From IMG/VR virus record IMGVR_UViG_3300021511_000224, positions 1 through 38,395 of that record: DNA of 38,395 nucleotides; one strand, 5' to 3'. Shown here piece after piece: positions 16,233 through 36,907 of this stretch (position 1 is the stretch's first letter; each line of letters begins with the position of its first letter). Below the pieces are notes generated by a model. It had not been told where the DNA came from, made no database searches, and saw nothing but the letters and a program-made list of their open reading frames with translations. Both the position numbers and the translations under genes were made by a program. The DNA is from a virus.

Positions 16233-18110
16233 TCAATCACCGATGACCATCTGCTTTTGAAGATCGTCGCGAAGCTCGTAGTAGCGCTTATCAAAAAACG
16301 GGAACCACTCGGGCACGAAGCGAACGATGCCTCCGTTAACATCTTGTTGGAACGTGCAGATCACGAAGCCGACGTGGGCTTCGAGCTTCTTTTTCCGCAT
16401 GAATGTGCTCTGATCGCAAACCGTCCCGCACTGTAAAGTGTGGACGTTGCGGGGATAGCAGTTTCCGGTGATCGTGATCTGACCGTTCTGGCGCATGACC
16501 CACGTACCGAGTCGAGTCGTGGGGCACCATGTCGGTTCAATGCTGCGTGCCACGCGCTGATCACGAATACGGTAATCACGATGTCGCTTGCGCAAGATGG
16601 CTGTAGAAAGCACTCGATCCGTCGTGCGTTTGCGGCTCCTGGACGGCGCCCATCCTTCCAAGAAGGACGCGAGCAGAAAGGCATCATTGATCGGACCTGG
16701 GTTCTGATGGAATTGAATTGTATCACGCCCGGTGATCGACCCCTCTCCAACCAAAAGGGCGTAGATGAACGCTTGTCGTTCTGCTGATGTCATCCGTAAT
16801 GCCAAATCAGTTGCAGCCTCACGGTCCAGCAATCCGGAATGGGACAGCTTGCCGATGCCTGGTCCGTCAGGTCCTTTCGCGGCCTGTATGAGTTTCGCCG
16901 TAGCGGGTGCCGAACCCAGCGATGAAAGGAATCGCCTCCCTTTGTGCTCCCAGGCCCATTTGTGATCTGGGGTGCAGCGAACCGAGAAGACGGTGTTCTC
17001 GAAGTGATCGACGGATGTAGGAGGCGTCAGGTTGATCCGCAGTAGCGGGGTCCATTCCAACGTGTCGGTGTCAAGGTTGTACGCCAAGACATCTTGTCCG
17101 ACACGAAGTGAATCATGCGTTCTCCATCCTTGGCGGGTCAGAATCTCGGAATCCAATGGAACGCAGTAGTCAAATTTGTGGGTGTGCCCCAGCAGCAAAA
17201 TGGCCGGCTTGGAGCCACCTTGTAGGCTCTCGACCATCTTCTGAGCGGAGTAGGAAATGGCGTAGGCCGAACCGCCTCCGGGGTGCATTATCTTGATCGT
17301 CGCATCGCCGTTCGGCGCTTGCAACAAAACATCCGCCTCCAAATAGCCCAGATACTGAAGGTCGTCGCGCCCCCGCTCTTTGGCCTCAAGGTACAGGTAG
17401 CGGCCGAACTCCACCCCCTCGCGCTGGTAGTACCAACCCTCGTGGTCGTCACCGTCGACGTAGTACGTGGTGATCCCTTTGCGCTGCGGCCAGTGGTCGA
17501 TGGCGAACAGGGCCTGGTCGGTGAAACCGTGGACGACCAGTTCATGCGTGTTGAACCTGGCCTCGCCGTCCACGTAGTTGCCGGGACAGAACACGGTCTT
17601 GATCTTACGACGCGCAAATTCATCGTAGGCGGCTTCGAGCACGTCGAGACGGGAGTGTTTGTTCCCCATGTGCATGTCCGACACCACGCCGAACTGCATG
17701 GGCTTGCCGTGGAAGTGGTTGGGGAAGTGAATCCTGCGCCCACCGGTCTGGACGGTCTTGCCGAGGTGGACGGTGTTGCCCACCCGCTTGACGATGTAGC
17801 CGCGATCCTCCAGGTCGGTGAGCGCCGCCTCAACCTCTTCGACCGAGACGTTGAGCTTGCCGGCGAGCGTCTTGATGGTCCTGGGCCGGTTGAGTTGTCG
17901 CAGCAGGATCGAGCGGAACTGCGGATCGGTGGCGTCGAACTTGACGGTGGGGACGTTCTCCAGCAGCACCCTGGCTTGAGTGATGAGTTGCCGCGCCTCC
18001 CAGACCGACACCTTCAACGCCTGGGCCACGTCCTTGCGGCCCAGGCCGCGCTGCACCATCTTGGCCACATCCGCCAGGAGACGCTGCCTTGGGTCATCTT
18101 GCCTGGGCAT
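16233..18110 (-). CDS. Metallophosphoesterase with N-terminal helix-turn-helix, interrupted by an in-frame intein
   Basis: 625 residues as translated, about 390 after splicing. Residues 1-115 hold two helical winged-helix-like parts. The phosphoesterase follows: 'VVSDMHMG' (D-x-H), 'VFCPGNYVDG', 'VDGDDHEGW', 'KIMHPGGG' and 'LLLGHTHKFDY'. Motif II has Asn where Asp is usual and motif III has Asp where Asn is usual. The family (calcineurin-like, near SbcD/Mre11) includes nucleases and phosphatases; HTH fusion suggests a DNA substrate. ATG at 18110 is used; an in-frame GTG at 18119 lacks a ribosome site. The intein is described separately. Next upstream gene is the class II RNR. Confidence 0.82.
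   Translation of the reverse strand: MPRQDDPRQRLLADVAKMVQRGLGRKDVAQALKVSVWEARQLITQARVLLENVPTVKFDATDPQFRSILLRQLNRPRTIKTLAGKLNVSVEEVEAALTDLEDRGYIVKRVGNTVHLGKTVQTGGRRIHFPNHFHGKPMQFGVVSDMHMGNKHSRLDVLEAAYDEFARRKIKTVFCPGNYVDGEARFNTHELVVHGFTDQALFAIDHWPQRKGITTYYVDGDDHEGWYYQREGVEFGRYLYLEAKERGRDDLQYLGYLEADVLLQAPNGDATIKIMHPGGGSAYAISYSAQKMVESLQGGSKPAILLLGHTHKFDYCVPLDSEILTRQGWRTHDSLRVGQDVLAYNLDTDTLEWTPLLRINLTPPTSVDHFENTVFSVRCTPDHKWAWEHKGRRFLSSLGSAPATAKLIQAAKGPDGPGIGKLSHSGLLDREAATDLALRMTSAERQAFIYALLVGEGSITGRDTIQFHQNPGPINDAFLLASFLEGWAPSRSRKRTTDRVLSTAILRKRHRDYRIRDQRVARSIEPTWCPTTRLGTWVMRQNGQITITGNCYPRNVHTLQCGTVCDQSTFMRKKKLEAHVGFVICTFQQDVNGGIVRFVPEWFPFFDKRYYELRDDLQKQMVIGD
16461..17165 (-). mobile_element. Intein (235 aa) inside the metallophosphoesterase
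   Basis: The insert begins at a Cys directly after 'GHTHKFDY' and ends with Gly-Asn before the Cys of 'CYPRNVHTLQ', so both splice junctions have the standard residues (Cys1, Asn-end, Cys+1). Block A is 'CVPLDSEILTRQGW', block B 'VRCTPDHKWAWE' and the C-terminal block 'GTWVMRQNGQITITGN'; a His before the terminal Asn is missing (Gly there). The centre has a LAGLIDADG-like first helix ('FIYALLVGEGSI') but is short, so the homing nuclease is probably reduced or single-motif. After removal the catalytic GHTH motif is continuous with the C-extein. Confidence 0.88.
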
Positions 18111-18161
18111 CCTCCACACCTGCTTTCGCGGCGCGGATGGTGGGGCCGAATGGTGGGGGGT

Positions 18162-19913
18162 CTACAGTTCACACGCTCCGGCGGGACAGTCGCCCACCGC
18201 AGCACCGATCGTCAGGTTGGCGAGGTGTTTGGCGGCCTCGGCGATGGGGAGCGGGGTCATGGGCGACTCCCCCCTGCTGCCGTGGCGGTAGATGGTGAGG
18301 CCCTTGAGCCGGGGAATGAATCGACGCATGGTTTGGGATAGTTGTTCGACAGGATAGTCGGTAGGCAGGTTGATGGTCTTGGAAATGGCGTTGTCGATGT
18401 GCTTCTGGCAGACTTCCTGGACCGCGCAGTGTTGCTCCGGGCCGATCTCATGTGCCCCCTGGAAGTGCTCGATGGACCGCCCCTCGCGCAGGAACTTCGC
18501 TAACAGCGGGTGCACGACGATTTCGCTGGATTCCTGTCCGTGCCCGCCGTGTTCGGCGAACCTCTGCCGGTACACCGGAGCGAAGATCGGCTCGATGCCG
18601 GACGAGCAGGCGGCGACGATGGAGGTGGTCCCGGTCGGTGCAACCGTGAGGACGGCACAGTTCCTGATCCCGTGTTCCTCGATTCTGCGGCGGATGCTCG
18701 GGGGTAGACACTCCGTGGCGAAGCCGCTACGGGCGTGCTTCTCTCGATCGACGGCGGGGAACGGTCCCTTCTCGATCGCCAGGCGGATGCTGGACTCGTA
18801 GGCGGCTCTCTTGATGAAGTCCATGACCTCAGCGGTGATCTTCAGGGCCTGGTCGCTGTCGTACCTGACGCCCAGTTTCAGCAGCAGGTCGTGCAGCCCC
18901 GTCACGCCCAGGCCGATGCGCCGATACTCTCGACAGGTCTCCTCGATGATCGCAAGCGGATAGTGGTTGCGGTCCAGCACGTCGTCGAGGAACCGCACCG
19001 CCAGGGATACCGTTTCTTTCAGGGCGTTCCAGTCGATCCCGCCGTTCCTCACGTGGGTCGGAAGAACGACCGCGCCCAGGCAGCAACAGTCGTAAGGTGA
19101 CATCCAGATTTCGCTACACGGGTTCGGGCACACCAGCCTGACACGGTAGTACAGCGTGTTCATTCTCTCGGCCAAGCCCAGGTTCAGCAGGCCGGGATCG
19201 CCGGTCGCCCAGGCGTGGCGGACGATCTTGTCCCACACCTCTTTCGCCCGGACGCGCCCGCGTTCCTCGCCGTGCCACCGCAGTACGATCTCCCCATCCT
19301 CGTCCACCAGCTTGAGGAACTCGTCGTCGATCAGCACGGAGATGTTAGCGTTCTCAAGCTGCCCCCGGTTCAGCTTAACCTCCAGGAACTCCGGCAGGTC
19401 AGGGTGGTCATAGCGCAGGCAGAACATCAGCGCCGATCGGCGGCCCCCGCCCTCTCGAAGCTCGTTGCAGACCGCGTTGATGCACCGCATGAGGCTGACC
19501 GAGCCGGTCGCCACGCCTCCGGTGCCTCGAATTGGAGAGCCACGAGGGCGAACTTTGGAGAAGTTCAGTCCCACGCCGCCGCCGGTGCCGGAGATGATGG
19601 TCACCGCCCGGAGCGCGTCACCCCAACCCTCTCTCGAATCCAGGTCGTCAGTCCACGTAAAGCAGTTCAGACACTGCCCGCGTGGACGACCGGCCCCGCG
19701 CCACACGCGTCCGCCCGGAGAGAACCGGTTCGTGGCCAGCAGATTGTGGAACCTGGCGGCGTAGTCTTCACGCTCGGTCCCCTGTTCTACCTGGGCGATG
19801 AATGCAGCCACGCGCTGGCAGGCCTGTTCAAACGTCTCCCTCTCGTGGATCGCGTAGCGGTCCCAAAAGACCGTGGCGGCGAAGCCGGTTGGTGTGTACG
19901 GGGGAAACGCCAT
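18162..19913 (-). CDS. nrdJ: Class II (adenosylcobalamin-dependent) ribonucleotide reductase
   Basis: 583 residues from ATG at 19913 (GGGAAGG upstream). Motifs: 'NLLATNRFSPGGRVW', 'LNCFTW', 'SGTGGGVGLNFSKVRP', 'NPCSEIWM' (Cys and Glu of the active site) and 'VLTVAPTGTTS' phosphate loop. The C-terminal Cys pair 'CPAGACEL' is the swinging redox couple. It reduces ribonucleotides to deoxyribonucleotides without oxygen, using B12, and needs no small subunit. At about 580 residues it is a compact phage-like form. With dNMP kinase and ThyX it gives the element control of dNTP supply. Confidence 0.92.
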   Translation of the reverse strand: MAFPPYTPTGFAATVFWDRYAIHERETFEQACQRVAAFIAQVEQGTEREDYAARFHNLLATNRFSPGGRVWRGAGRPRGQCLNCFTWTDDLDSREGWGDALRAVTIISGTGGGVGLNFSKVRPRGSPIRGTGGVATGSVSLMRCINAVCNELREGGGRRSALMFCLRYDHPDLPEFLEVKLNRGQLENANISVLIDDEFLKLVDEDGEIVLRWHGEERGRVRAKEVWDKIVRHAWATGDPGLLNLGLAERMNTLYYRVRLVCPNPCSEIWMSPYDCCCLGAVVLPTHVRNGGIDWNALKETVSLAVRFLDDVLDRNHYPLAIIEETCREYRRIGLGVTGLHDLLLKLGVRYDSDQALKITAEVMDFIKRAAYESSIRLAIEKGPFPAVDREKHARSGFATECLPPSIRRRIEEHGIRNCAVLTVAPTGTTSIVAACSSGIEPIFAPVYRQRFAEHGGHGQESSEIVVHPLLAKFLREGRSIEHFQGAHEIGPEQHCAVQEVCQKHIDNAISKTINLPTDYPVEQLSQTMRRFIPRLKGLTIYRHGSRGESPMTPLPIAEAAKHLANLTIGAAVGDCPAGACEL

Positions 19914-19973
19914 AGCGAATCGACCTTCCCTAACCATCCAGCATGGACCTGGCGCTGGCGACGGAGAACAGCT

Positions 19974-22256: not shown

Positions 22257-25200
22257 TCATTTACGGAGCTCTTGCATCAAGTCGCGAGCCTCGGTTGCGT
22301 CGCGTAGGCCTAGCCATCGAGCGATACGCTTCAACAAGCCCAACCAGCGCGTGTCGTCGCAACGGCTACTCAATCTAATTGCGTGCGGCAGCTCCACATA
22401 CGGATTACCGTGGTATGTAACCAATGCCCATGTCGGCCACATCATTGAGCTCCGGGAGACACTCGCCAACAGTCTTCGGACTCTTACTAGGGTTGCACCC
22501 ATACCTCCCGTTGACGCGACCAACGGCGAGTAAAGCGACTCACCGAGTATCTTCCCCATGGCATCGTAGACTGGTAAGGCGCTTGCGATAACTGCCTCCG
22601 CCCCTTGGTTCAGGAGGGCCCACGCCAAGTCCTCGCGCTTCCCACCCCAATCACGCACACGACCCGCCCTGCAACAGTTGAGGATCACAATCGGCCCATG
22701 CGAGAGCAGCTTGTCTCGCGCCAATCGCACATTCAGATCCTCAAGCTCCCTTCGTCCGAAATAGACCGGGCCCAGATCGTCGCCACTGTGCAAAACCAAG
22801 ACTTCTTCATTGCCCACAATCGCACCGTGCCCGGAGTAATGAATCACGGAACTCGAGTGGGATATCACCTCGCCAATCGATACCGCATTCGCGTCACGCC
22901 CGATCAATGGTCCTCCCTCGGGCACTATCGTATATCCCTCTTGCGCCAATACCTCCGTCACGTACCCAGCTTCCTGCTTCGCAGACACCAGATGCGATTC
23001 GGAGGAGCAACCGGCGTTCCAGGGACACACAATTGCTGCGGTCTTTCTCCCCTCGCCGACTGACCGACGGCGAAGACAACCAAGCGCCCCTCCTGTCACG
23101 CCCCCCCACCTAGCCAGATGCCGCTGCAAGCCTAGCCAATCTGCTTCCCCGGATCCACAGCGCAGCGCCTCCCAAGGGAATGCCGTCCAGAGCGCGTCGC
23201 CACTGATAAGCACGTCACTATCAGACGCCGGGTCCAATACCTCTCGCACACCATTTGGCAGCTTGTTCCATGCGTCTTCAGCAAGGGTTTCAAAACCTTG
23301 CCACGAACCTTCGCGCCCCGGTTGCCCATCTCGGTCAAACGCCTTACCTATCTCAAGAAACAACCTTACTCCTGCATCGTGGAATCGGTCAGCGCGGTAC
23401 CACTGTAATCCCCTGGAATTCTCACCATCTAGGACTGCTAAGACCGCCCCGGAGTCTCTCAAGTACTGTCCGATCACAACACAGACTCGTTGTCCCGCCC
23501 CTCCGCTGACCTCTCTCAGTGTCTCGAGCGCCGTCTCAAGGCTTTCGTCTGCTACTTCACGCGTAACACGAACCGATCCTTCGCGCAACGCGGCTAGGTA
23601 ACGGAATACTGCATCTGCGTCCTTACCTCTTATTAAGTGAGCCAATAATTCCCTGTAGCTGGCCGACGCCCTCCCCTTGACCAACCACATATCCCGTTCG
23701 TCCGCTTCAGAGTTCTCAGCCGTTTGTACCGCACGGCGCGCATGTCCCAACGCCTGCTCATGCTCACATAATCGTGCCATGACTTTGACTAGATTGTTTT
23801 CCGCAACCACAACATCTGCCAGGTACGCGCTAGGTTGCTCTGCCGCCAAACTGCGCAACAACGTGCATGATTCTTCATAGGCGCCTCGCGCGCCGGAGTA
23901 GTCTTGTGCATCTACCAATGCATTGCCAAAGCCGTTCAAGGTGTGCGCGAGGAGAAGGCCATTCGTGTGTGGCTGCTCTGTCGCAAGCGCGCGACTAATC
24001 CCCACTGCCTGATGGTACATAACGCGTGCCTTTGCGTGCTCGCCGTCATCGCTCAACACAGCACCGAGGTTTAATAGTGTCGACGCCACATGGCGCGGAT
24101 AAATGCCTGGGTCCCGCTTTAGCAAACGGCCATAGATACGGATCGCCGACATGAATGCATCTTGCGATCTACCAAACTCTCTTCTACTGTGAAGTACCAG
24201 ACCAAGATTGTTCAGACAGGCTGCTTCTGAGCACTTGTGGAGTTCCGGTTCACTTGTCGCGAGTCCGCCGAAAGTCGCCGCTGCTTCTTCTAACAGCGCT
24301 AGCGCGGCAGAGTAGTCCCGCTGCTCGCGCAGTAAGTTCCCGAAGTTGGCAAGTGTGCGTGCGAGTGCCGCTTGATGGGAGCGCGATTGTTGTCTCGATA
24401 GTGTCCGGCAAATCCCCAACGCCTCCGCAAAGTGTTGCCGCGCCGCGGCGAGACCGCGTTGTCCTTGGAGGACATTCCCGAAACTGTTCAGGGTGCTCGC
24501 GACCTCGTGCTCGAAGCTGGCCGGATCCGTGTCGGCTAAGATGCGGCGGATTACGAGAGCCTTGGATAGGGCGCTACCTGCTCTGTCGTACTCGCCAGCT
24601 TCATGTAGGGCAATGCCCAGGTTGTGCCATGTTGTTGCGACAAATGGTCGATACAGCTCCGGATCCGCAGCTGCCAGCGCCTCCCGGATGCGCACTGCCT
24701 CATGAAGAACATTTTGCGCACGATCGAAATCACGTCTCTCAGTTAACACTGTTCCAAGATTGTTCAGCGTAGTGGCTGCTTGTGCGCGATAAAGCTCAGG
24801 CTCCGCCTCCGCCAAGCCAGCATACAGGTCTCTCGCCTGCTCTAGGAGTTCGCATGCCTTCTGCCACTGGCAACGATTCGCAGAATAGGCTCCCAGGGTC
24901 GTCAAGAGGTAGGCTTCACATTCAGTGAAGTCATGCTCGCGGGACGCGGACAAGAGTAATTCGCAGCTCCACTCCGCTTTGTCTATCGCGGGTTGGCCAT
25001 AACTCGCGAACTCTTCGGGATGGTCGATCACGAGCGCGAATCCTCTGAATCCTATGAGTACAATTGCTGCCGATTCAGTTACCCGTCCCTCGGACTTGAG
25101 CTGACGAGCGACGGGCTCCCAAACAGAGAGAGCCAACGCGCCTTGGCCGGTCTCTCGTTCGCCTAGCAACTCACGAATGCGGCTGTCAGAACAGCTATTC

Positions 25201-25280
25201 GTTGCCATCTCAAGAAACTCGGCTCGCCCTGTTGCGACGAATTTCCTTACATAATTGACCCAAAGGGGCGTGGTATCCAT
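22257..25280 (-). CDS. TPR-CHAT protein (caspase-like protease with tetratricopeptide repeats)
   Basis: 1007 residues. From about 115 to 530 there are roughly ten 42-residue tetratricopeptide repeats ('ATTLNNLGTVLTERRDFDRA', 'ARTLANFGNLLREQRDYSAA'). The C-terminal CHAT domain has His818 in 'VIHYSGHGAIVG' and Cys870 in 'ILNCCRAGR', the dyad of caspase-HetF peptidases. Known relatives act as abortive-infection or gasdermin-activating proteases, and the type III-E CRISPR partner Csx29 is a TPR-CHAT; here no CRISPR or gasdermin gene is in view. Base composition is visibly more AT-rich than the replication genes, as for a transferred gene. It has no strong ribosome site. Confidence 0.85.
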   Translation of the reverse strand: MDTTPLWVNYVRKFVATGRAEFLEMATNSCSDSRIRELLGERETGQGALALSVWEPVARQLKSEGRVTESAAIVLIGFRGFALVIDHPEEFASYGQPAIDKAEWSCELLLSASREHDFTECEAYLLTTLGAYSANRCQWQKACELLEQARDLYAGLAEAEPELYRAQAATTLNNLGTVLTERRDFDRAQNVLHEAVRIREALAAADPELYRPFVATTWHNLGIALHEAGEYDRAGSALSKALVIRRILADTDPASFEHEVASTLNSFGNVLQGQRGLAAARQHFAEALGICRTLSRQQSRSHQAALARTLANFGNLLREQRDYSAALALLEEAAATFGGLATSEPELHKCSEAACLNNLGLVLHSRREFGRSQDAFMSAIRIYGRLLKRDPGIYPRHVASTLLNLGAVLSDDGEHAKARVMYHQAVGISRALATEQPHTNGLLLAHTLNGFGNALVDAQDYSGARGAYEESCTLLRSLAAEQPSAYLADVVVAENNLVKVMARLCEHEQALGHARRAVQTAENSEADERDMWLVKGRASASYRELLAHLIRGKDADAVFRYLAALREGSVRVTREVADESLETALETLREVSGGAGQRVCVVIGQYLRDSGAVLAVLDGENSRGLQWYRADRFHDAGVRLFLEIGKAFDRDGQPGREGSWQGFETLAEDAWNKLPNGVREVLDPASDSDVLISGDALWTAFPWEALRCGSGEADWLGLQRHLARWGGVTGGALGCLRRRSVGEGRKTAAIVCPWNAGCSSESHLVSAKQEAGYVTEVLAQEGYTIVPEGGPLIGRDANAVSIGEVISHSSSVIHYSGHGAIVGNEEVLVLHSGDDLGPVYFGRRELEDLNVRLARDKLLSHGPIVILNCCRAGRVRDWGGKREDLAWALLNQGAEAVIASALPVYDAMGKILGESLYSPLVASTGGMGATLVRVRRLLASVSRSSMMWPTWALVTYHGNPYVELPHAIRLSSRCDDTRWLGLLKRIARWLGLRDATEARDLMQELRK

Positions 25281-26588: not shown

Positions 26589-26690
26589 CTAACGGCCCAT
26601 CAGTCGGTTATACACCTCGGTTCAGATCATGGTCGGTCCATCATCAAGGTCGGGTGCGTTTTCCTGACTCTCGCCACCGCCCGGTCCCGA
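26576..26690 (-). repeat. Repeat block shared with 21705-21819
   Basis: Covers the last 21 or so sigma codons and about 50 bases beyond its stop. Ungapped alignment with the 21.7-kb block. Together the two blocks flank the TPR-CHAT island as direct repeats 4871 bases apart. Confidence 0.7.
26606..26636 (-). promoter_or_regulatory. Second type promoter-like box after the sigma gene
   Basis: Minus strand CCGACC-N18-TATAACC, overlapping the sigma stop codon. It could drive the small remnants and island genes downstream. Its twin is in the 21.7-kb remnant. Confidence 0.45.
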
Positions 26691-27145
26691 ACGGAGAACA
26701 GATTGACGTGCGAGCAGCCGATCTCCCGCGACACCTGCCGCACGGACTTCCCCTCGGCCAGGTGACCCCAGAGCAGGGCGCGCTCCTTCTCGTCAAGCCC
26801 GTCCAGGATTTCATGGGCCGTGAGGGTTTCCGCCGGGTCGTCCGCCTCGCCCGCCGCGAAGTCGGCGAGCCTCTCCTCGTCCATCAACTCGATGCGTCGG
26901 TGCCGACGTTCCGATTCGAGGAAGTGCTGTACGCGGCCGCGCACCCGGCAATACAAGTAGGTGACGAACCGAGCCCGCGCCGGGTCGAAGTGGATCATGG
27001 CGTACAGCAATTCCCGGTGGGCGACGGCCATGGCATCGTCCACCTGCGCTTCGCCGGGACACAAGCGGCAGCAGATGGCCTTCAGCATGTTCTCCCACCG
27101 GCTCATTCGGTGGTTGAAAAGTGACGACGTGATTCTTCTTTGCAT
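26627..27145 (-). CDS. Small sigma-70 family factor
   Basis: 172 residues from ATG at 27145 (GGAAG upstream). 'FDPARARFVTYLYCRVRGRVQHFLES' matches sigma region 2 (core and -10 binding). 'LDEKERALLWGHLAEGKSVRQVSREIG' plus 'SHVNLFSVRDRAVARVRK' matches region 4 helix-turn-helix (-35 binding). Only regions 2 and 4 are present, as in ECF sigmas and phage sigmas. It starts 13 bases after the recombinase stop in one operon. I infer that it reads the YGACC-N18-TAYAACC boxes found here, one of which drives its own operon (autoregulation). Confidence 0.8.
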   Translation of the reverse strand: MQRRITSSLFNHRMSRWENMLKAICCRLCPGEAQVDDAMAVAHRELLYAMIHFDPARARFVTYLYCRVRGRVQHFLESERRHRRIELMDEERLADFAAGEADDPAETLTAHEILDGLDEKERALLWGHLAEGKSVRQVSREIGCSHVNLFSVRDRAVARVRKTHPTLMMDRP

Positions 27146-27158
27146 GGGTGACTTCCAA

Positions 27159-28097
27159 TCAATCGTTTGGAACCTCTGTAATCCGGGCGCACTTTCGCCC
27201 TGCTTCGTCGGGAGGACGTCCCCTCTCCGCCCACCGGGGGTGGCACCGCCGACAGATCTCAGCCAGCCGTTCCGGGGACGTGTTGAGGTAGACCTGCGTG
27301 GACGACAGGCTGGAGTGGCCGAGCAGCCGCTGCACCTGGCCCAGGTCAACGCCGCGCCGCAGCAGCCACGTGGCACACGTCCGCCTGAGCGTGTGGGAAG
27401 TGGTGTGTCGCACCCCGGCACGTTGGGACAGGGCCGTGATCATGTTGCTGACCGCGCGGCGGGTCAGGCGCTCGTTCGTGTCGCCCTGGATGAACAGGGC
27501 GTCGGTCCGTCCACGGTTCCCATGCCCGCGTTCGGCCAGGTATGCGGCGATGGCCTCCACGCACTCGGCGCTCAGTGGGACGATCCGCTCCCTGGCTCCC
27601 TTGCCCTTCACCCGTGCCCAACGCTGATCGAGGTGGCAGTCGCCCAGGTTCAGGCCGCAGAGCTCACTGACCCGCAGGCCACTGCCGAAGAGGGCGTGGA
27701 CGATCGCCCGGTTGCGCAGCGCATTGGTTCCCCTCGCCGGCACCAGTGCCACTACGAGGAGCCGATCGAGTTCGTCGGGTTCCAGGGACGGCAGGTTCTC
27801 CCTGTGGACTCTGATGGGGTCGATCAGAAACAGTTCCTGCTCGTCGAGCTTTCCCTTGTCAGCCAGGAACCGGTAGAAGCACCGGACGCTCATGCACTTG
27901 CGACGCACGGTGCTCGCCCTGAGCCCCAGCCCGAACAGGTGTCTCACGTAATCCTCGACCGACCGGGCGGTGAACGTCCGGTCATCGTTGAAGGACAGGA
28001 ACCCGGTCACGTCCCGCACATAGGCGATCAGCGTCTCCTCCGCGAGACCCAGTTCGATGCTGACGTAGGCCTTGAATCCAGACAGGTGACAGTCCAT
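27159..28097 (-). CDS. Xer-like tyrosine recombinase
   Basis: 312 residues. N-terminal SAM-like core-binding domain ('TLIAYVRDVTGFLSF', 'STVRRKCMSVRCFYRFL') and C-terminal catalytic domain with Arg142 ('GSGLRVSEL'), Lys in 'VKGKGARERIVPL', His235-x-x-Arg238 ('HTLRRTCA'), His261 ('LLGHSSLSST') and the nucleophile Tyr270 ('TQVYLN'). ATG at 28097 is chosen for the CGGAGGGACC ribosome site and because the promoter-like motif ends 20 bases before; the frame extends further upstream without support. It could integrate the element, resolve dimers or move the repeat unit it belongs to. Confidence 0.9.
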   Translation of the reverse strand: MDCHLSGFKAYVSIELGLAEETLIAYVRDVTGFLSFNDDRTFTARSVEDYVRHLFGLGLRASTVRRKCMSVRCFYRFLADKGKLDEQELFLIDPIRVHRENLPSLEPDELDRLLVVALVPARGTNALRNRAIVHALFGSGLRVSELCGLNLGDCHLDQRWARVKGKGARERIVPLSAECVEAIAAYLAERGHGNRGRTDALFIQGDTNERLTRRAVSNMITALSQRAGVRHTTSHTLRRTCATWLLRRGVDLGQVQRLLGHSSLSSTQVYLNTSPERLAEICRRCHPRWAERGRPPDEAGRKCARITEVPND

Positions 28098-28185
28098 GCC
28101 TCGGTCCCTCCGGGATGGTTGTACGGACCACCCTCGCTTTTGGTCAGAAAAAGTCGGGGTGGTCAAGAATCGTTGTTCTCGGTTT
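28088..28185 (-). repeat. Repeat block shared with 21825-21922
   Basis: Promoter region and first three codons of the recombinase gene, ungapped against the remnant at 21.8 kb. It holds two -35-like boxes (TTGACC, then 13 bases, then CTGACC). Confidence 0.7.
28117..28147 (-). promoter_or_regulatory. Promoter-like motif of the recombinase-sigma operon
   Basis: CTGACCAAAA-N9-GTCCGTACAACC on the minus strand. The -10 (TACAAC) ends 20 bases before the recombinase ATG, nearly the same distance as for the fmdB-like gene. The leader contains TCCC-GG-AGGGA, where the second half is the ribosome site. Confidence 0.65.
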
Positions 28186-28270
28186 GCGCACTCCGACCGC
28201 ACTCCGGAACCCTGCACCAATAAATGAGCAGGCAACCGATAATCAGAAACGTCTGATGAATGTCAGCGCG

Positions 28271-28755: not shown

Positions 28756-29553
28756 TCAGAGTTCAGGGCACGCGGGCTCGACCCCCTTGGTCCCGTCATC
28801 GAGCGTGATCACCCTCATGCCGTGCATCAGCAGGGGTGATACGCGCCGCATGATCTCGAAGACCTTGACGAACAGGCGTCGGGTCTCCGGGTCGGCAGCC
28901 GGGTGCGCCCTGGTTGCGATCATGTGCCGCAGCGCCCGCGTGTTGGCCCCAACGAAGACCTTGGTCTCCATCGCGTCGGGCAGGACCGACCGCGCGGCTT
29001 CACAACGTTCGGTTTGGTCGCAGACGTCCGAGTGCCGTTCGCCGAGCGCGCCGGCCAAGTCCGCGCATAACTCGCGTGACGCAGCCATGTGCGACTTCCA
29101 GCGCTCAAACATGGCCGCGTTAGCCTTCTCCAGGGCTTGAATGGCAGGGGGCACCACGAAGGTGACGTCCGATCCATCCACGCAGCATTGCCGCAGTTGG
29201 GAATAGGACACACCGATGCGATGCCGCACCAGTTCGTGCGTGAGAGACCGGGACACGTTCCACACCACGAAGCACCAGTAGGCGTGCTCGAATGCGTTTC
29301 CGTGTTCGATCTCGATGAGATGCTGAATGTAGGCGTCGTGACCCCCGCCCTTGCCGTCGAAGGACATGGTGCGGAGGCGCGCCGCCAGTTCGCAGACGTA
29401 CTCCGGGTCCCGGTCGCCCAGGTCCAGGTCACTGTCGATCTTGTGGCGGAGTTCCTCCCAGCGCAGCTCGTGCGCATTGAGAAACCCGACTACGCCGGCA
29501 ACGTCAAAGACCTGCCTCGCGACCAACTCCACTTGTGGTTCGGTAACAAACAT
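28756..29553 (-). CDS. thyX: Flavin-dependent thymidylate synthase ThyX
   Basis: 264 residues from ATG at 29553. The ThyX signature appears as 'RHRIGVSYSQLR' at about 110-121 (R-H-R-x7-S type), with 'GHDAYIQHLIEIEHGNAFEH' before it (FAD-binding His/Glu) and 'NTRALRHMIATRAHPAAD' later. It methylates dUMP to dTMP with FAD, NADPH and methylene-folate, and is common in phages. An in-frame GTG at 29598 precedes the ATG; a GGAGGGAGAG run lies between, too far for the ATG, so the true start may lie in this stretch. The 138 bases before it, after brxL, hold no clear gene. Confidence 0.9.
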   Translation of the reverse strand: MFVTEPQVELVARQVFDVAGVVGFLNAHELRWEELRHKIDSDLDLGDRDPEYVCELAARLRTMSFDGKGGGHDAYIQHLIEIEHGNAFEHAYWCFVVWNVSRSLTHELVRHRIGVSYSQLRQCCVDGSDVTFVVPPAIQALEKANAAMFERWKSHMAASRELCADLAGALGERHSDVCDQTERCEAARSVLPDAMETKVFVGANTRALRHMIATRAHPAADPETRRLFVKVFEIMRRVSPLLMHGMRVITLDDGTKGVEPACPEL

Positions 29554-29691
29554 TTGCCCAGCTTTCTTGGTTTGAGATGTGATCTTCTCTCCCTCCACGG
29601 TCCCACGCGGGACGCGCGGGCCGTCGTCTTCCCCCCATGATCGAAGTGGTAGGTAGGCGTCGTAGGTGGGTGTGTCTGCGGTGAACTCGCG

Positions 29692-31143
29692 TCACGCCGC
29701 CGCTCCCTTCAATTCGCAGAGCAGTTCTGCGTGACGGAACTCACCCGGAGCCATCCTGGCCAGTTGATCGAGCACCCGCCGGCGAAGCCCCACGGCCTCG
29801 GCCAGGATCCAGTCCAGTTCCTCACGCTGGATCGTTTCGGACGTCCTGTGCGGGTAAACCAGCTTCAACAGCCCCGACGCGATCTTGGTGATCGCGGTTT
29901 CGCTCCGCTTGCCCATCCCATTGAAGTCCACGTGATCGAGCAGGATGGGGCCGTAGTTGCGGGAGCGCATCTGGTGCATGATCTCGCTGAGGTAGTCGGC
30001 CATGAAGCCGACGCCTCGGGCGAGCCTGGATTCGGCAATCTGCGGGGCGGTCCACCCCGGCAGGAAGCCGTGAATCCGGTCAAGGAAGGCGCAGTCCCGA
30101 CCCATAACCTCGGGCAGCGGATCGAACAGGTTGCGGCAGCGGGACGAGACCTGGCGGGTCGACCGGTCACACTCGATGTTGCCGGCGAAGACCACGCTGC
30201 ACTCCGAGGCGAACTCCTCGGTGTCCCTGCCGAAATGCCCGGTGTTAAGATAGTCCTTGAGGATGGCCACGATCCGCTCGTCTCGGAAGTTCGAGTGCGC
30301 GATCTCGTCGAACAGGATGCAGTCGCGGTAGCCTACCAGGCCCATCTTGCGCCGGGCCTTGTTGTAGAACAGGCTGGCCACCGTGGTGTTCGAGCCGGAC
30401 ACGACGAAGCCGTAGCTGCTCAGGGACCTGAACGCGAAGGTCTTGCCCGTCTCCGGCGGCCCCAGTTCGATCAGGTTGACGTTGGGCTCGATGAAAGGCA
30501 CCAGCCGTAAGAGATACAACACTTTTTCCCCCCGATTCAGACCGGAAGGGTCGAATCCGATCGAGGTAATCAGCAGGTCGATCCACTCATCGTCCGTGAA
30601 GGAGGCGCGGCCTTCGATCCAGGCGTCCACGTTGATCTTGGTGATCTGCAACGGCGTGAACGCCTCAACAACAAATGGGAACCTCTTCCCCCCAAGGCTG
30701 AAGTGTCCGTCAAATGCGACAGTGATTCTACCCCACGCGCCGGCGGTAAGCAAACTCTCCGAGAAAGTTCTCACGAGTGAAAGGTCGATGCGGACATACT
30801 GATCTCCAAGCGCGGGTATCTCGGCCCAGTACATGTCGCGTCCCTGATCGTAGCGCACGCGCAGCGGGCCGATAAGATGATGCTTGCCGTTCTCGCGTAT
30901 AAGACTCTTCACCAACTCTTGTTGTTCGCTCTCGATGAAGTGCTCGCGCAGGAGCCGGTCCATCTTCTCCAGGCCGGGCGCGGGGTCGTTGGGATCGACC
31001 AGCGAAGCGACCAGATAGTCCGCCACGAACTTCGGCAGCCTGCGGAACTGCTCGGCGAAGTGGGCGATGCCCTTGTTGACCACGACCTTGCCCGGCTCGA
31101 ACACGGTGAGCACTTTGTCGTCCAGCGTGGTGGAAACAATCAT
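29692..31143 (-). CDS. brxL: BrxL-like AAA+ ATPase without Lon protease domain
   Basis: 483 residues from ATG at 31143 (GGAG ten bases before). The whole length follows BrxL of BREX phage-defence systems: 'GKVVVNKGIAHFAEQFRRLP', 'FTDDEWIDLLITSIGFDPSG', 'LIELGPPETGKTFAF' (Walker A about 228-235), 'SGSNTTVASLFYNK', 'CILFDEIAHSNF' (Walker B about 275-281), 'VVFAGNIE' sensor, 'CAFLDRIHGFLPGW' and 'GLLKLVYPH'. Canonical BrxL is near 680 residues and ends in a Lon-like domain; here the protein stops after the AAA+ and its lid. No brxA, brxB, brxC, pglX or pglZ is in the window. It is a probable DNA-translocating ring, role in this element unknown. Confidence 0.82.
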   Translation of the reverse strand: MIVSTTLDDKVLTVFEPGKVVVNKGIAHFAEQFRRLPKFVADYLVASLVDPNDPAPGLEKMDRLLREHFIESEQQELVKSLIRENGKHHLIGPLRVRYDQGRDMYWAEIPALGDQYVRIDLSLVRTFSESLLTAGAWGRITVAFDGHFSLGGKRFPFVVEAFTPLQITKINVDAWIEGRASFTDDEWIDLLITSIGFDPSGLNRGEKVLYLLRLVPFIEPNVNLIELGPPETGKTFAFRSLSSYGFVVSGSNTTVASLFYNKARRKMGLVGYRDCILFDEIAHSNFRDERIVAILKDYLNTGHFGRDTEEFASECSVVFAGNIECDRSTRQVSSRCRNLFDPLPEVMGRDCAFLDRIHGFLPGWTAPQIAESRLARGVGFMADYLSEIMHQMRSRNYGPILLDHVDFNGMGKRSETAITKIASGLLKLVYPHRTSETIQREELDWILAEAVGLRRRVLDQLARMAPGEFRHAELLCELKGAAA

Positions 31144-31148
31144 CCGAT

Positions 31149-31418
31149 TCACTCCATGAAACCCAGTGCGTCGGTCCGCTCGACCGATCCGCACTCGTGA
31201 CTCTCGACATGGTCAGCCTTATCGGGCACGACGGGGGCGGGCCGGCCGACCAGCATCTTGTCCCAGCAGGCCAGGTGCACGACCAGGTTCTTGGACCTGA
31301 CGTCGTAGGCGACCGAGTAGCCCTCGGCGTCGAGCCCCTCCAGACGGCAATTGGTCGCGAAGATGATCCGTTCGCCGGGCCGGACCCGGCGGTGACAGTA
31401 CGGACACTTGCTTGTCAT
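31149..31418 (-). CDS. Zinc-finger protein upstream of brxL-like gene
   Basis: 89 residues from ATG at 31418. It opens 'MTSKCPYCHRRVRPGERIIF' with a C-x2-C pair and completes with 'VHLACWDKML' (His and Cys), a small treble-clef or LIM-like zinc site. The stop lies five bases before the brxL-like ATG, and the ribosome site of that gene lies inside this gene's last codons, so the two are probably coupled. It could be a DNA-binding partner of the ATPase. Confidence 0.65.
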   Translation of the reverse strand: MTSKCPYCHRRVRPGERIIFATNCRLEGLDAEGYSVAYDVRSKNLVVHLACWDKMLVGRPAPVVPDKADHVESHECGSVERTDALGFME

Positions 31419-31549: not shown

Positions 31550-34500
31550 ATGGTTCGTGCAGCATCACCAGCGACGGTCACAGGTGGCAGCGGGTTTGGA
31601 TTCGAAGATCAGGTTGGCGCGTACTACCTCGCTCACCTGCTGGCGTGCCGCATGCCCCTCGGGAAGGAGTTCGGACCGATCCAATCGATTCAGTTCCAGG
31701 TCCGCGATGCCGGATGGCTCTTGGACGATCTGCTCTTGGTCACGGCTGGGGACGGACGGGCGCGGTCATTCTCAATCTCGATCAAAAGCAATCGGCAAGT
31801 CACGCGAAACGGGTTTCCTACGGATTTTGTGCGGTCGGCGTGGGAACAATGGCTTGGCATCGACAAGGAGGTTTTCCAGGAAGAACGAGACATTATTGGG
31901 CTCGTCACTGGCGAGCTCGCCAGCGTGGTAAGAACCGCCTGGAGCGCTCTGCTTCGCGCTGCGATGGAAACAGACCCCGCACGTCTTGCGCAACGGATTG
32001 CCACCCCCCGGCTTTCCTCCAAAGTCCAGCGTGCGTTATTCGCAAGCCTCCAGTGCCCTTCGGATCTGCGAGCCCGAGACAAAACGGATGACCTTGCCGC
32101 GGCACGCCTAATACGACATCTTCGGTTGCTTCACCTTGACTTTACGGAAGAACCGTCAGCCCATCGTGATGATGCTATCGACATTTGCCGATCACTTCTC
32201 GACGCCGAATCGTCACACGAGGCGGCGTCTCTCTGGGATCACCTGGTAGGAGTAGTGAGCGACAAGCGACAGTGCGGCGGGTCGATCGGTCTACCTGAGA
32301 TCCTCCGCGCACTACGGAACGAGCACCGGTTGAAGGACTACGCCGATTATCGCGCGGATTGGAGGAATCTCGAACGTCGTACAGCTGAGTCAATGGATGA
32401 CATCTTGGACACTGTTGGCGGGAACGTATCGCTGCTCCGCTACGAGCAGTTGGAATCGATCCAGGGCCAGCTCCGAGAGATACGTGCGATCGTGCTGCTG
32501 GGCAATTCAGGATGCGGGAAGTCCGCCCTGGCGAAACGCACAGCCCAGCGACTAGGTGGTTTCGACAAGGTCGTGTGGCTGGACGGAAGCAGCCTGAATG
32601 CCCCCGACTTGATGTCGGTGGAGCGATCATTGGGTCTAGCAAACAGTTTTGAGGAGCTCCTGAGGTCCATTCCGGCGACGCGGGCGCTACTCGTGCTCGA
32701 TGGTATCGACCGGTTTTCAGAACAAGCCCTGCAACGCACCGTTCGCATTCTCCGGCTCTGTGATCTCGATGGACCTGCAAGCCCCTGGCATGTACTCGCG
32801 ACATCGAGCCCAGAGAGGTGGGAAGTCACAGCTACGCAACTATCCGCTGATGGAGGATGGCCGACCAAGTTCGATGTTCTCCCGATCGGCGACCCACTGC
32901 CGGAGGAAACTGTGATGCTTCTGGAGGCATGTCCGTCGCTCCGACCTCTTGCGCTCAGGACCGAACTCCAGCCGCTGTTGTCCAACCTCAAAACATTTGA
33001 CTGGGTCGCGGTCGCATCGATGCAGCATCTTGACGCTGGTCCGAGTTCCTGGGTAGGCATGTCCGATGTCGTCGATTGGGTTTGGGCACGATGGATAGGC
33101 CAAGGAGGGGATCGTCACGCCCGCGCAGGCTTGCTCAAGAAACTCGGGGAGACCGAAGCCTCCTCTCTTGAGAACGGCGTCCCGACGTCGTGCCTGACCG
33201 GCCCGGAACTTACGACGTTAGGCGCGCTTGCGAACTCCGGGCTTCTCGTCGTCAAGGACGAGCGCGCCCGATTTGCGCACGATCTCTTGTCAGATTGGGC
33301 ACGACTCCGGATATTGATGGGTCAGGAGGCGACCCTGGCTGAGGAGCTCAAAACACGAGTTACTTCTCCTCGCTGGCATCGCGCGATCCGGCTGTACGGT
33401 CAACGTCTTTTGGAACACTGCCGGACGGACACGTCGTCCTGGCAGGCCGTCATGCGGCGATTGTCCGCCGAGTCTAACGAGGACATTCTCGCCCGCGATC
33501 TTCTACTCGAATCAGTGATCTTCGCGACTAACGGCCGTGTGCTCCTTGAACATCTGCTGCCCGAGCTTCTTGCCGAGAATGGGTTGCTGCTGAACCGGTT
33601 GCTCAAGCGGTTCCTGCATGTGGCCACCTATCCCGATCCGCGCATTCCCGAGGTCGCGGAAACCGAAGATACGAAACATTACTTTGCCTCTGAATTCCGC
33701 GTGCCACTCCTGCCGTACTGGCCGCCAATGCTGGCGTTCTTGCATCGGCATAAGGGCGAGGTGATTCCGATCAGTTGGCATCTCACGGCCAGGGTATGCG
33801 GACTGTGGTTGAGCGCCCTGCCCAGCGACATGGGGCCGGGCCGCCCGTTTCCTTGGCGACGCCAAGCGGCGGTGGTCACTGTTGCCGCCGCCCGGGAGGT
33901 TCAAGGTCTCAAGGCGGCGGGCGTACACATTTTGGATGACTTGGACCAAGCGGTCTACGAAGCCGCACTTGCGGCCGTCCCGGACCTGCCCGAAGAGGTA
34001 TCCTCACTCGCGCTCGAGCTCGCACGGCGCTGTGATGAGTCACCCGAGATTCAAACGCGGGCTCATGCTTATAAGGTACGTGTCGCCAAAAATGCGCTGG
34101 ATCGGCAACAACAAAACGCGGTACTCGCGAGTCTCTCCGGCGTCCCTTCCTTGGGACGGGCTAGGCGAGGTCCGCGTAAAGAGCCCTGGCCAGATGGTCC
34201 GCGCGAACGCGTTGACGACGGCTTTCAGGAAGCGTGCCTGAAGGGTCCCGCGATGATCCCCCTGATCCGCGCACTGCCGGAGACGGCGCTGGAAGTTCTG
34301 CTGGCGGTCTGTATCGAGCCACCAGCATACGAGGGCTGGGATGGTAGCGACTGGTTGCTTGATCACATAGGGACCACCCACTCGCGAGACCTTTACCCTC
34401 CGATGTACTTTCGCGGACCCTTCTTGCCGTTTCTCCAACTCCAACCTGTGCATGGGCTCGAGTTTATCTTGCGGCTGGTCAACTTCGCCACCGAGCGCTG

Positions 34501-36907
34501 GCAATACTCGGAAGAGCAGCACGCAAATCGCTTCGGCGCACCGAGCGTCAAGCCCGCGCCCGTGGTCTCTGTCCCGCTCGACGATGGACCCGTGCAGTGG
34601 GTTGGCGATCACCGGCCCTACGGATGGTATCGGCATCTCTGGATTCACGCTGACTGTGTTACCAGCGCGTTGATGGCGCTTGAGAAATGGTTCTACGACG
34701 AGTTGGATGCCGGCCATGACGTGAGTCGGTGGATTGAGTTGATTCTTCGTCGTTCGAGGTCGAATGCGTTCGCCGGGGTTCTCTCCGCCTTAGGCAAGAG
34801 GGAGCCGAAGCTGTTCGAGGGACCGTTGCGGCCACTTCTCGGAATATGGCGAATCTACGATTGGGATTACCAGCTCGTCATGAACGGCGATGTGTGGCGC
34901 ATCGAGATGATGAGTTGGGTACGGGGGGGCGAGACCGTCTATAATGGTGTGCGCGACTGGCACATGTTCGCTCACCGCAAGGGGTCGCTTCGAGACCTAG
35001 CCGTCCTACTCATGCTTTCCAACGCTGAGCTGGCAAAGTGGTTCGAATCAATCCGCGCAAATTGGACCAGTGAGCTCGCAGGCGATCCAGACAATGAATC
35101 GCTGGAGCTGCTTCTCGCGAGGTTCGATCCTGCGAACTACCAACGCTCCCGCCTCGACGATGGGCGATACCAGATTGGCCTCGTCTGGCCCGAACACTTG
35201 CGAGAGCGGATCGAAGCTGCGGCCAGTGATGATGAGGACGCCTTGGCTTTGATGGGCTTCCCCCTGAGGTGCCACCGCATCATTGAAGAGCGGAATGCAC
35301 TGACTGACGCTGACCTCCCCAATTTCTGGAATGAACTTCAGCGCTTTGCCGTGCCGGTTGACGAGAGTGAGCGGGAGGAATCCTCCAGGTCCCGGGCTGA
35401 CGCGCTCTGCGCTGGCATCGCGGTGCTTCTGCTCCTTCACCGCGAATGGCTAAGAAGCGACTCTGCACGAGAGCAGTGGTGCCTGGAACAACTTGAGGGA
35501 ATCTGGTCCCGCCCACCACAGCGCGACGAGTTTGCGGTTCCAAACTCGGTCATGCCGACAGCTTGGGACCGGGCCTTCGCGAAGTGTGCCGTCGTACTTC
35601 TGTCGGAGGCACCGGACGACGAGCTGCGCCGGCGTTGGGTCGCTGCCAGTGTGACTGCGTATCACTACGAAGCGACCAGTACGGCCATGCATATGGCTCG
35701 CGACCTCCGAAGACATCTCGGCGACGACTTCATGCGACTCACGAACCTCGTTGTGTTGTGGGCCGGTCTTCGCGGTACAGTCCACCGTGCGCAATCACTG
35801 GGCTTCGGGCTTTCACGGTGGAATCGATGGTATGGCGCGATGATAGCGGCTTTTGTTGCAAGGTTGCTCCCAACTCAGCCATTGTCTTGGCAGCGAATCG
35901 GCGCTGCGGCAGAGCGCCTTGGTGTGCGCATGACAAGGAGGAAGTACCCAGGATTCGGGATGGCTGATCCCGCGGAGAGCGAGGACAGCGTCAGGAATCG
36001 GCGCTCCCGCAGGAAGCGATCCCATCCAGGGTTCGACCCGCGCACAATCCAAGCCGGTTTCGGATGGCTCGTGGATATCGACATCGCGCGGGGCGCCAGC
36101 GAACGAAATTCATGGATAGGGCTGGTTCATGAGGTGTTGGGCGTAACACTTCGAATGCTGCCCAGCACCGAGGAAGACCAGGAAGTGGATGGGACTCCTT
36201 ACGAGCTCGACCACTGGGTCTTCGAGCTTGTCGCGAAAGTCATCCCGAAGCTGACTCCGGAGGAGAACGCCGAGTCGCTGTGGCGACCAATCCTGGAGCT
36301 CGGACCAGCAGCCCACTACTGGGTTGAGGGTTTCCTCAGTGATTGGTTCATCCATGGAGAGAGAGCTTCGCCAGCCCCCGAACTCTTTGTCAGCCATTGG
36401 CACGCGATGATCCGGCACGCCCTCCAGTCGCCAACATGGACACCCGGCAGTTGGCTAAGTCGCCGGCATTTGGAGGACATGTTCATTCAGCTCATGGGAT
36501 TAGGCTGGGCTGCGGAGGCCGTGAGGGAAGCCAAGTATGCTGCCGAGATAGAGTCAATGCTGCCGGCGTACAAGGCCTGGGCCCACCGCTGGCTTCAGCA
36601 CTCGCGTTCGGCAGCAAGCTTTGCCGCTTTTCTTGCACGCCCCGCCGGCCGCAAACTGATCTCCCCGGGCATCCGCTGGCTTCACAGTGCCGTTGCGGGC
36701 TACGATGACCGTGACTGGCGGTGGGACAATCTGGAAGGCAACCTCGTGGAGGCGCTTCATGCGTGTTGGTCGCAGCAGGGTCACCTCCTTGGTAACAACC
36801 GAGACCTCAAGGACGCCTTCTTCGGCTTGTTGGGACTCCTTACCCGCCGTCAGACCCCAAGCGCCATGGAGCTTCGTGACCGAGTGTTGCGCTCGATCCA
36901 AACCTAG
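31550..36907 (+). CDS. Giant nuclease-STAND NTPase (Avs-like), predicted defence protein
   Basis: 1785 residues, the only plus-strand gene and the largest. N-terminus: a PD-(D/E)XK-like nuclease with Glu19 ('GFGFEDQVGAYYL'), Asp59/Asp60 ('LLDDLLLV') and Lys79 ('FSISIKSNRQ'), the layout of Mrr/Cap4-type effectors with S-x-K in place of E-x-K. A P-loop NTPase follows: Walker A 'GNSGCGKS' at 318-325 and Walker B 'LLVLDGID' near Asp384. About 1300 residues of helical sequence with many Trp then form a possible sensor; no standard repeats are evident. Architecture effector-NTPase-sensor is that of STAND (NLR-like) antiphage proteins. Base use is more AT-rich than the minus-strand genes. Target and exact family unknown. 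Confidence 0.8.
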   Translation: MVRAASPATVTGGSGFGFEDQVGAYYLAHLLACRMPLGKEFGPIQSIQFQVRDAGWLLDDLLLVTAGDGRARSFSISIKSNRQVTRNGFPTDFVRSAWEQWLGIDKEVFQEERDIIGLVTGELASVVRTAWSALLRAAMETDPARLAQRIATPRLSSKVQRALFASLQCPSDLRARDKTDDLAAARLIRHLRLLHLDFTEEPSAHRDDAIDICRSLLDAESSHEAASLWDHLVGVVSDKRQCGGSIGLPEILRALRNEHRLKDYADYRADWRNLERRTAESMDDILDTVGGNVSLLRYEQLESIQGQLREIRAIVLLGNSGCGKSALAKRTAQRLGGFDKVVWLDGSSLNAPDLMSVERSLGLANSFEELLRSIPATRALLVLDGIDRFSEQALQRTVRILRLCDLDGPASPWHVLATSSPERWEVTATQLSADGGWPTKFDVLPIGDPLPEETVMLLEACPSLRPLALRTELQPLLSNLKTFDWVAVASMQHLDAGPSSWVGMSDVVDWVWARWIGQGGDRHARAGLLKKLGETEASSLENGVPTSCLTGPELTTLGALANSGLLVVKDERARFAHDLLSDWARLRILMGQEATLAEELKTRVTSPRWHRAIRLYGQRLLEHCRTDTSSWQAVMRRLSAESNEDILARDLLLESVIFATNGRVLLEHLLPELLAENGLLLNRLLKRFLHVATYPDPRIPEVAETEDTKHYFASEFRVPLLPYWPPMLAFLHRHKGEVIPISWHLTARVCGLWLSALPSDMGPGRPFPWRRQAAVVTVAAAREVQGLKAAGVHILDDLDQAVYEAALAAVPDLPEEVSSLALELARRCDESPEIQTRAHAYKVRVAKNALDRQQQNAVLASLSGVPSLGRARRGPRKEPWPDGPRERVDDGFQEACLKGPAMIPLIRALPETALEVLLAVCIEPPAYEGWDGSDWLLDHIGTTHSRDLYPPMYFRGPFLPFLQLQPVHGLEFILRLVNFATERWQYSEEQHANRFGAPSVKPAPVVSVPLDDGPVQWVGDHRPYGWYRHLWIHADCVTSALMALEKWFYDELDAGHDVSRWIELILRRSRSNAFAGVLSALGKREPKLFEGPLRPLLGIWRIYDWDYQLVMNGDVWRIEMMSWVRGGETVYNGVRDWHMFAHRKGSLRDLAVLLMLSNAELAKWFESIRANWTSELAGDPDNESLELLLARFDPANYQRSRLDDGRYQIGLVWPEHLRERIEAAASDDEDALALMGFPLRCHRIIEERNALTDADLPNFWNELQRFAVPVDESEREESSRSRADALCAGIAVLLLLHREWLRSDSAREQWCLEQLEGIWSRPPQRDEFAVPNSVMPTAWDRAFAKCAVVLLSEAPDDELRRRWVAASVTAYHYEATSTAMHMARDLRRHLGDDFMRLTNLVVLWAGLRGTVHRAQSLGFGLSRWNRWYGAMIAAFVARLLPTQPLSWQRIGAAAERLGVRMTRRKYPGFGMADPAESEDSVRNRRSRRKRSHPGFDPRTIQAGFGWLVDIDIARGASERNSWIGLVHEVLGVTLRMLPSTEEDQEVDGTPYELDHWVFELVAKVIPKLTPEENAESLWRPILELGPAAHYWVEGFLSDWFIHGERASPAPELFVSHWHAMIRHALQSPTWTPGSWLSRRHLEDMFIQLMGLGWAAEAVREAKYAAEIESMLPAYKAWAHRWLQHSRSAASFAAFLARPAGRKLISPGIRWLHSAVAGYDDRDWRWDNLEGNLVEALHACWSQQGHLLGNNRDLKDAFFGLLGLLTRRQTPSAMELRDRVLRSIQT

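Follow-up and report, generated by a model that had tools for sequence, protein, structure and literature searches.

What is an ATPase from a bacterial defence family doing in the early region of a phage genome? The stretch of DNA that we analysed, which we call the window, is IMG/VR virus record IMGVR_UViG_3300021511_000224 over its full 38,395 bp, and its content is that of the early region of a tailed-phage genome. At 29692..31143 on the minus strand, it encodes a 483 amino acid (aa) MCM-type AAA+ ATPase that resembles BrxL of the bacteriophage exclusion (BREX) defence systems but has no C-terminal Lon-like domain. The initial annotation of this gene had the coordinates exactly, to which we add the minus strand, with the ATG at 31143 and the stop at 29692. 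By sequence and fold the protein is a member of the BrxL family, and by context it is no component of a BREX system. In a lineage of large tailed phages its gene belongs to the core set, and we think, with a probability of roughly 0.6, that the product works in the phage’s own DNA replication or genome maintenance.

The protein has the BrxL_N region at residues 19–143 (30715..31089, minus strand; PF20442, E 1.9e-23) and the AAA+ domain at residues 157–473 (29725..30675, minus strand; PF13337, E 4.1e-107), with 83 and 358 bits against curated Pfam cut-offs of 28.2 and 25. The NCBIfam model TIGR02688 gives 431 bits against a cut-off of 329, with nearly the whole of its 449 positions covered, PADLOC calls the protein BrxL at 422 bits, and the Acinetobacter BrxL in the Protein Data Bank (8emc) matches query residues 12–470 at 2e-84. 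The protein had been described as matching the AAA+ part of BrxL along its whole length, and while the AAA+ match stands, the description is too narrow since the N-domain matches as well (PF20442 and 8emc). The absence of the C-terminal Lon-like domain was described correctly: about 200 residues, equivalent to approximately 498–679 of 8emc, are not present. We found no Lon proteolytic domain with a Ser-Lys dyad, as the C-terminal domain is absent and Pfam gives no Lon match. We also ran the recommended comparison of BrxL and MCM profiles, in which the BrxL profiles matched and no MCM family did at E<=1 in Pfam. DnaB, superfamily 3 (SF3) and primase-helicase profiles gave no match in Pfam or PHROGs, so these profiles do not place the protein in an ordinary phage helicase family.

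The predicted structure points the same way. An AlphaFold2 model (predicted local distance difference test score, pLDDT, of 89; predicted template modelling score, pTM, of 0.87) matches BrxL (8emh) with a template modelling (TM) score of up to 0.90 in Foldseek, followed by MCM subunits at about 1e-9, and in VIA-align BrxL has a Z of 44 and MCM chains come next with Z of 16–18 over about 350 residues. The strands that the model has at 87–164 fit the OB-fold annotated at the same place in PMC12839542. The best viral models, ORF425 of Acidianus filamentous virus 2 (AFV2) and a SIRV9 protein, have TM scores of 0.6–0.7 (0.61 and 0.68).

We aligned 22 phage proteins with 75 BREX proteins. The Walker A motif, GPPETGKT in the window (30439..30462, minus strand), is GPPE[ST]GKT or GPTMTGKT in most phage members and GP[RK]GTGKS in BREX members. 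The Walker A lysine, the Walker B glutamate E280, the sensor-1 asparagine and the arginine of the DR motif are invariant in the 22 phage members; in BREX, an E280Q mutant abolishes restriction (PMC10164562). Leucine 134 at the subunit interface is kept in all 22, and E/D79 is kept as well. Two positions that contact DNA in BREX BrxL remain basic, 264 in all 22 and 265 in 20 of them, one with a histidine. When the window is compared with contig L165 of a Phycisphaerales metagenome-assembled genome (MAG), whose copy is 97% identical, the ratio of nonsynonymous to synonymous substitution rates (dN/dS) is 0.07 for the BrxL-like gene and 0.235 for the small zinc-protein gene upstream of it. Purifying selection on the BrxL-like gene is strong.

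Close relatives form a clade of 34 records, made up of the window, one MAG contig and 32 virus contigs, with some near-duplicates among them and proteins of 465–509 aa. Scanning viral contigs with the single BrxL-like protein gave zero matches. A scan with a mixed BrxL profile gave 67 loci in the virus database, nearly all of them real BREX loci with PglZ beside a BrxL of about 600–720 aa in type 1 and 474–540 aa in type 4. This second scan missed the clade because the Walker A pattern of the profile, P[RK]GTGKS, excludes the usual phage form, PPE[ST]GKT. The clade was found by using the phage UvsX as bait, in virus records of up to 181 kb: 19 of 30 UvsX-related virus records have a short PF13337 gene, and the 11 without one are also without the ThyX locus (in two distant ones ThyX is only 29%). 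With a profile built from the phage clade we found 33 loci, 32 of which belong to it. We rejected L237 as a member, as it is an ordinary 678-aa BREX BrxL with PglZ.

Every contig of the family that covers the locus has the BrxL-like gene, and the GC content of the loci ranges from 28 to 62%. BrxL identity is 52–59% among most of the phages and 38% for the member in record G010. Among named phage isolates and plasmids, the clade is in no isolate, and the matches that we inspected are BREX loci or distant short BrxL proteins. When 392 Planctomycetota genomes were searched with the clade profile, it reached 788 bits in the MAG that holds L165 and did not exceed 409 bits in any of the other 391. 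One record of the clade, G007, has 181,233 bp plus a terminal repeat of 127 bp, which makes it complete, at about 181.2 kb; it encodes terminase, portal, NAD ligase, DnaB and a split DNA polymerase III (Pol III). The record is classed as linear, though the first 100+ bases are found again 127 bp before the end.

The window has no other BREX gene, as had been noted from the start: nothing matches PglZ, PglX, BrxC or BrxP. PglZ, the hallmark of BREX, is in none of 27 clade records (21 plus 6 further), 15 of which are 113–181 kb long and one of which is the complete genome G007. A full BREX locus just outside the window had been raised as the finding that would overturn the orphan interpretation, and judged on the family rather than on the window’s own flanks, the relatives have none. 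Our answer to the suggested survey for short BrxL genes beside a zinc-finger gene is the 34-record clade; the Lon-less form as such is also found in type 4 BREX.

We came across three other unusual BrxL loci. L071 has a 476-aa type-4-like BrxL at 7965–9395 in a phage contig of 67,969 bp with no PglZ in the record, and is apparently an independent orphan BrxL in a different phage. In L269, from Planctomycetota genome G420, a BrxL of only 495 aa lies in a type 1 BREX locus that also has PglX and PglZ, which shows that the C-terminal part can be lost inside type 1 BREX too. L271, in Planctomycetota genome G332, has a long BrxL, and tblastn gave no PglZ or PglX match in the 16 kb searched.

The neighbours of the gene are those of DNA metabolism. 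Immediately downstream in the window, as had been pointed out, is thyX (28756..29598, minus strand; PF02511, 7e-38), which encodes an FAD-dependent thymidylate synthase and lies downstream on the same strand in all 30 loci that have enough downstream sequence. It is followed by a Xer-type tyrosine recombinase (27159..28235, minus strand; PF00589, 1.6e-39) and a sigma-70-type factor (26627..27421, minus strand; PF04542, 3.5e-8; TIGR02937, 1.2e-11), whose true start is probably inside the frame and which is syntenic with 4169–4681 of a second record, G001. Across the family the order is zinc protein, BrxL, ThyX, Xer, an optional ClpP-like protease and sigma factor. The ClpP-like gene (PF00574, 1.1e-34; L183:11725-12492 and orthologues) sits between Xer and sigma in most members and is missing from that position in the window and in G001. 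Free-standing HNH-type genes and ThyX inteins occur around the locus in the family, among them a LAGLIDADG intein in the 605-aa ThyX of L192; such genes and inteins are usual at conserved DNA-metabolism genes.

Further along, the early region of the window encodes the N-terminal half of Pol III alpha, a deoxynucleoside monophosphate kinase, exonucleases, primase, DnaB, UvsX and ribonucleotide reductase (RNR), the large subunit of which is at 18162..19937 on the minus strand (PHROG 84, 1.7e-116). DnaB is a gene of its own, at 8680–10224, separate from the BrxL-like one. About 28 kb of the window are syntenic with G001 (37,190 bp), where the identities are 52% for DnaB, 54% for UvsX, 53% for primase, 65% for RNR, 48% for ThyX and 51–52% for BrxL. 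BrxL has thus diverged in step with the replication genes, which argues that it is no recent passenger. The nearest isolate by RNR and UvsX is Moorella phage MTATph1, at 30–35%.

Upstream of the BrxL-like gene is a gene for a small CxxC..HxxC protein of 89 aa (31149..31418, minus strand). The coupling of the two genes that had been proposed is borne out, in that 5 nt separate the end of the zinc gene from the BrxL ATG, and the ribosome-binding site of BrxL has its GGAG overlapping the zinc-gene stop codon. In most family loci we recognise the zinc gene upstream, sometimes with an HNH-type free-standing gene in between, and since the pair and the gene order recur in divergent phages, the association is not due to chance. 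The zinc protein ends in a conserved peptide, SVERTDALGFME (31152..31187, minus strand), which has the family pattern R[ST][DN]AL.[LFM]; its arginine and leucine are invariant in 22 rows of the alignment, and in a search of 36 sequences that included other phage proteins, an R[ST][DN]AL tail at the protein end was found in zinc proteins only. An AlphaFold2 model has a confident small core (pLDDT about 90) and a low-scoring, flexible tail, and no fold in the search matched it clearly (best Z 3.5). ALSLF in the tail resembles a clamp-binding motif, a similarity that we considered and do not claim as the key glutamine is missing. Of the suggestion that the two genes make up a new defence module, the conserved two-gene unit survives; nothing points to defence.

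A maximum-likelihood tree of 63 proteins, built from the shared N-domain and AAA+ domain and left unrooted, separates three branches: the phage proteins (100/99), the long BREX proteins of type 1 kind (96/98) and the short ones of type 4 (100/100). The G010 member has a long branch. The tree, with its long branches and no root, cannot decide between gain and loss of the C-terminal domain. BrxL of type 1 BREX (8emc and 8emh; TIGR02688 and TIGR02653) shares with the phage protein the N-terminal region, the MCM-like AAA+ domain and all ATPase residues, at 32–38% identity and a TM score of 0.90. It differs in having about 680 aa rather than 465–509, the extra part being a C-terminal domain of about 200 aa, Lon-like or an HKD nuclease, that dimerises the rings. 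The phage proteins also fall outside the type 1 clade, have another Walker A, do not keep R104 and K287, and are encoded without PglX, PglZ or BrxC in a phage DNA-metabolism cluster.

Type 4 BrxL shares the architecture, with a short N-domain and AAA+ form of 474–540 aa. A Lon-less BrxL is therefore not new in itself, because type 4 BrxL has no C-terminal extension either (PMC12839542, and our own loci). Type 4 proteins are only 26–29% identical to the phage proteins, form their own clade, and have BrxP, BrxC and PglZ in nearly all the loci that we saw, while the phage clade has no such neighbours. What does appear to be new is a third BrxL clade that is a phage core gene outside BREX. A full-text search of open-access PubMed Central (PMC) turned up no paper on phage-encoded or stand-alone BrxL, and PMC12839542 makes no mention of orphans or prophages.

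Two further families invite comparison. The rudivirus and lipothrixvirus ATPases (SIRV1 ORF440, SIRV2 ORF436 and AFV2 ORF425) are also short viral AAA+ proteins outside BREX and have the closest viral folds, but they belong to archaeal viruses and are 14–17% identical to the phage protein. A 2014 review annotates AFV2 ORF425 and rudivirus ATPases of the same size as Lon protease (PMC4124505). A weak match to PHROG 6542 is perhaps a sequence link to them. Archaeal viruses thus also seem to have short ATPases that resemble BrxL and do not belong to BREX, a homology suggested by fold and perhaps by this match. MCM replicative helicases share the OB-fold and AAA+ fold with the predicted model and, probably, the ring on double-stranded DNA, but there is no Pfam MCM match for the phage protein, the identity is 9–16%, and MCM double hexamers are joined by their N-domains.

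How might such a protein work? BREX BrxL is an ATP-dependent ring on double-stranded DNA with homology to MCM, a hexamer whose C-terminal domain joins two rings (PMC10164562). Going by that structure, the phage protein would assemble on double-stranded DNA with its N-domain and AAA+ domain in an ATP-dependent manner, and its ring would be a single one, as the domain that joins two BREX rings tail-to-tail is absent, with an essential ATPase. The zinc protein, to judge by its co-transcription and conserved tail, would serve as partner or adaptor and put the ring onto DNA. The initial annotation had offered a helicase or translocase for the element’s own DNA as one of three roles, and this is the one that we favour on the strength of the core-gene status, the cluster with ThyX, Xer, sigma factor and RNR, the purifying selection, the intact catalytic residues and the MCM-like fold, with the helicase activity itself being putative. 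As to the specific step, we tentatively suggest origin opening or the loading of the phage DnaB, which is possible and would be the most economical choice because DnaB, primase and Pol III alpha are all phage-encoded while no DnaA or DnaC/IstB was detected: none of 13 records has a DnaA-family match, and none of 11 has a DnaC/IstB-family match over the cut-off, the only weak IstB hits being the P-loop of BrxL itself. Our next choice would be that it acts at forks or recombination intermediates, as a translocase or a remodeller.

Several observations weigh against a role in the phage’s own DNA replication or maintenance. R104 and K287, which contact DNA in BREX BrxL, are not conserved in the phage clade. 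A loader was looked for with two Pfam families, and G007 has another AAA protein. Helicase activity has not been demonstrated even for BREX BrxL (PMC10164562), and these phages do not need a second replicative helicase as they already have DnaB. The extremes of the cumulative GC skew of G007, the complete genome, lie to either side of the gene and not at it, a position that the skew does not mark as an origin. ClpP and a sigma factor are in the operon too, so the argument from association is a loose one.

We weighed four alternatives. The initial annotation had proposed a decoy that mixes with host BrxL rings; a Lon-less protein could block restriction in this way or by tying up BREX partners. 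The parts for assembly are there (N-domain and AAA+, L134, E/D79) and the ring-dimerising domain is not, so mixed rings could be defective, and disrupting the ring ATPase can inactivate BREX, as E280Q shows (PMC10164562). However, the protein is only 26–38% identical to BREX BrxL, a single clade spans phages of 28–62% GC whose hosts are presumably unrelated, every family contig covering the locus has the gene, and BREX-type BrxL is in only 29 of the 392 Planctomycetota genomes. A poison would not need the catalytic residues, all of which are kept, and a dN/dS of 0.07 is not what an arms race looks like. We consider a decoy quite improbable. Less so, but still unlikely, is a weapon against other phages or the host, in which the ring, targeted by the zinc protein, would load on the DNA of a rival phage or of the host and stop its replication, as has been proposed for BREX acting on phages. 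Two defence-like genes lie nearby in the window, a TPR-CHAT gene and an Avs4-like STAND gene, but both are recent insertions absent from close relatives, while the zinc protein, BrxL and ThyX are fixed across the lineage; there is no methyltransferase or PglZ partner, and the context is nucleotide and DNA metabolism.

The ClpP-like gene raises the idea of a protein unfoldase or remodeller, as AAA+ rings and ClpP are classic partners and PF00574 is in the same conserved cluster. We give this very little weight: the window and G001 do without ClpP at the Xer-sigma position, the fold is that of BrxL and MCM with a DNA-binding N-domain rather than of a Clp or Lon unfoldase, and head maturation is a common role of ClpP-like proteins in phages. 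A degraded BrxL left over from a captured BREX locus has next to no chance of being right. Truncated BrxL inside BREX does exist (the 495-aa protein in the type 1 locus of G420), as does a lone type-4-like BrxL without PglZ in a 68-kb phage contig (L071), but the phage proteins form a deep clade, apart from every BREX BrxL sampled (100/99), and are intact, uniform in length (465–509 aa) and under strong constraint.

BrxL is among the least understood parts of BREX: it rings DNA, is required for restriction in some systems and is MCM-like, and its proven activity is that of a DNA-dependent ATPase only. A minimal, stand-alone, Lon-less BrxL that a phage lineage conserves under strong selection sets the activity of the ring apart from the other BREX components, so that it can be tested directly. 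The clade also matters for annotation, as PADLOC and TIGR02688 will label the genes of the phage clade as BREX or Lon protease and the context says neither. If these proteins do act in replication, a defence ATPase and a viral replication ATPase would belong to one family, and which way recruitment went would be a matter for phylogeny. One speculative answer, which we regard as rather doubtful, is that the third BrxL branch is a replication initiator or DnaB-loading ring of large phages guided by the zinc tail, that bacteria recruited this viral ATPase into BREX by adding the ring-dimerising C-terminal domain along with PglZ and PglX, and that the archaeal-virus ATPases would be further relics.

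We made a few other observations in the window. The 1785-aa STAND-like NTPase at 31550–36907 on the plus strand, with its Avs4-like stretch (NF041815, 3e-12; PADLOC Avs4, 1e-9), is flanked by the zinc gene and other early genes and reads in the opposite direction; it is missing from L165, which elsewhere is 92–93% identical to the window, so we take it to be a recent insertion of a defence-like gene into the phage. The TPR-CHAT (caspase-like) protein of 1007 aa at 22257–25280 (minus strand) is missing from L121, a virus contig about 92% identical, and is a second lineage-specific, defence-like insertion. The N-terminal half of Pol III alpha is at 3369–5714 (minus strand), by eye with no intein fragment at its end; in G007 the N- and C-terminal halves are separate genes several kb apart (L245:14320-16788 and L246:1905-4493). 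Finally, 16233–18119 (minus strand) encodes a metallophosphoesterase-like protein that, by eye, seems to have an intein-like insert.
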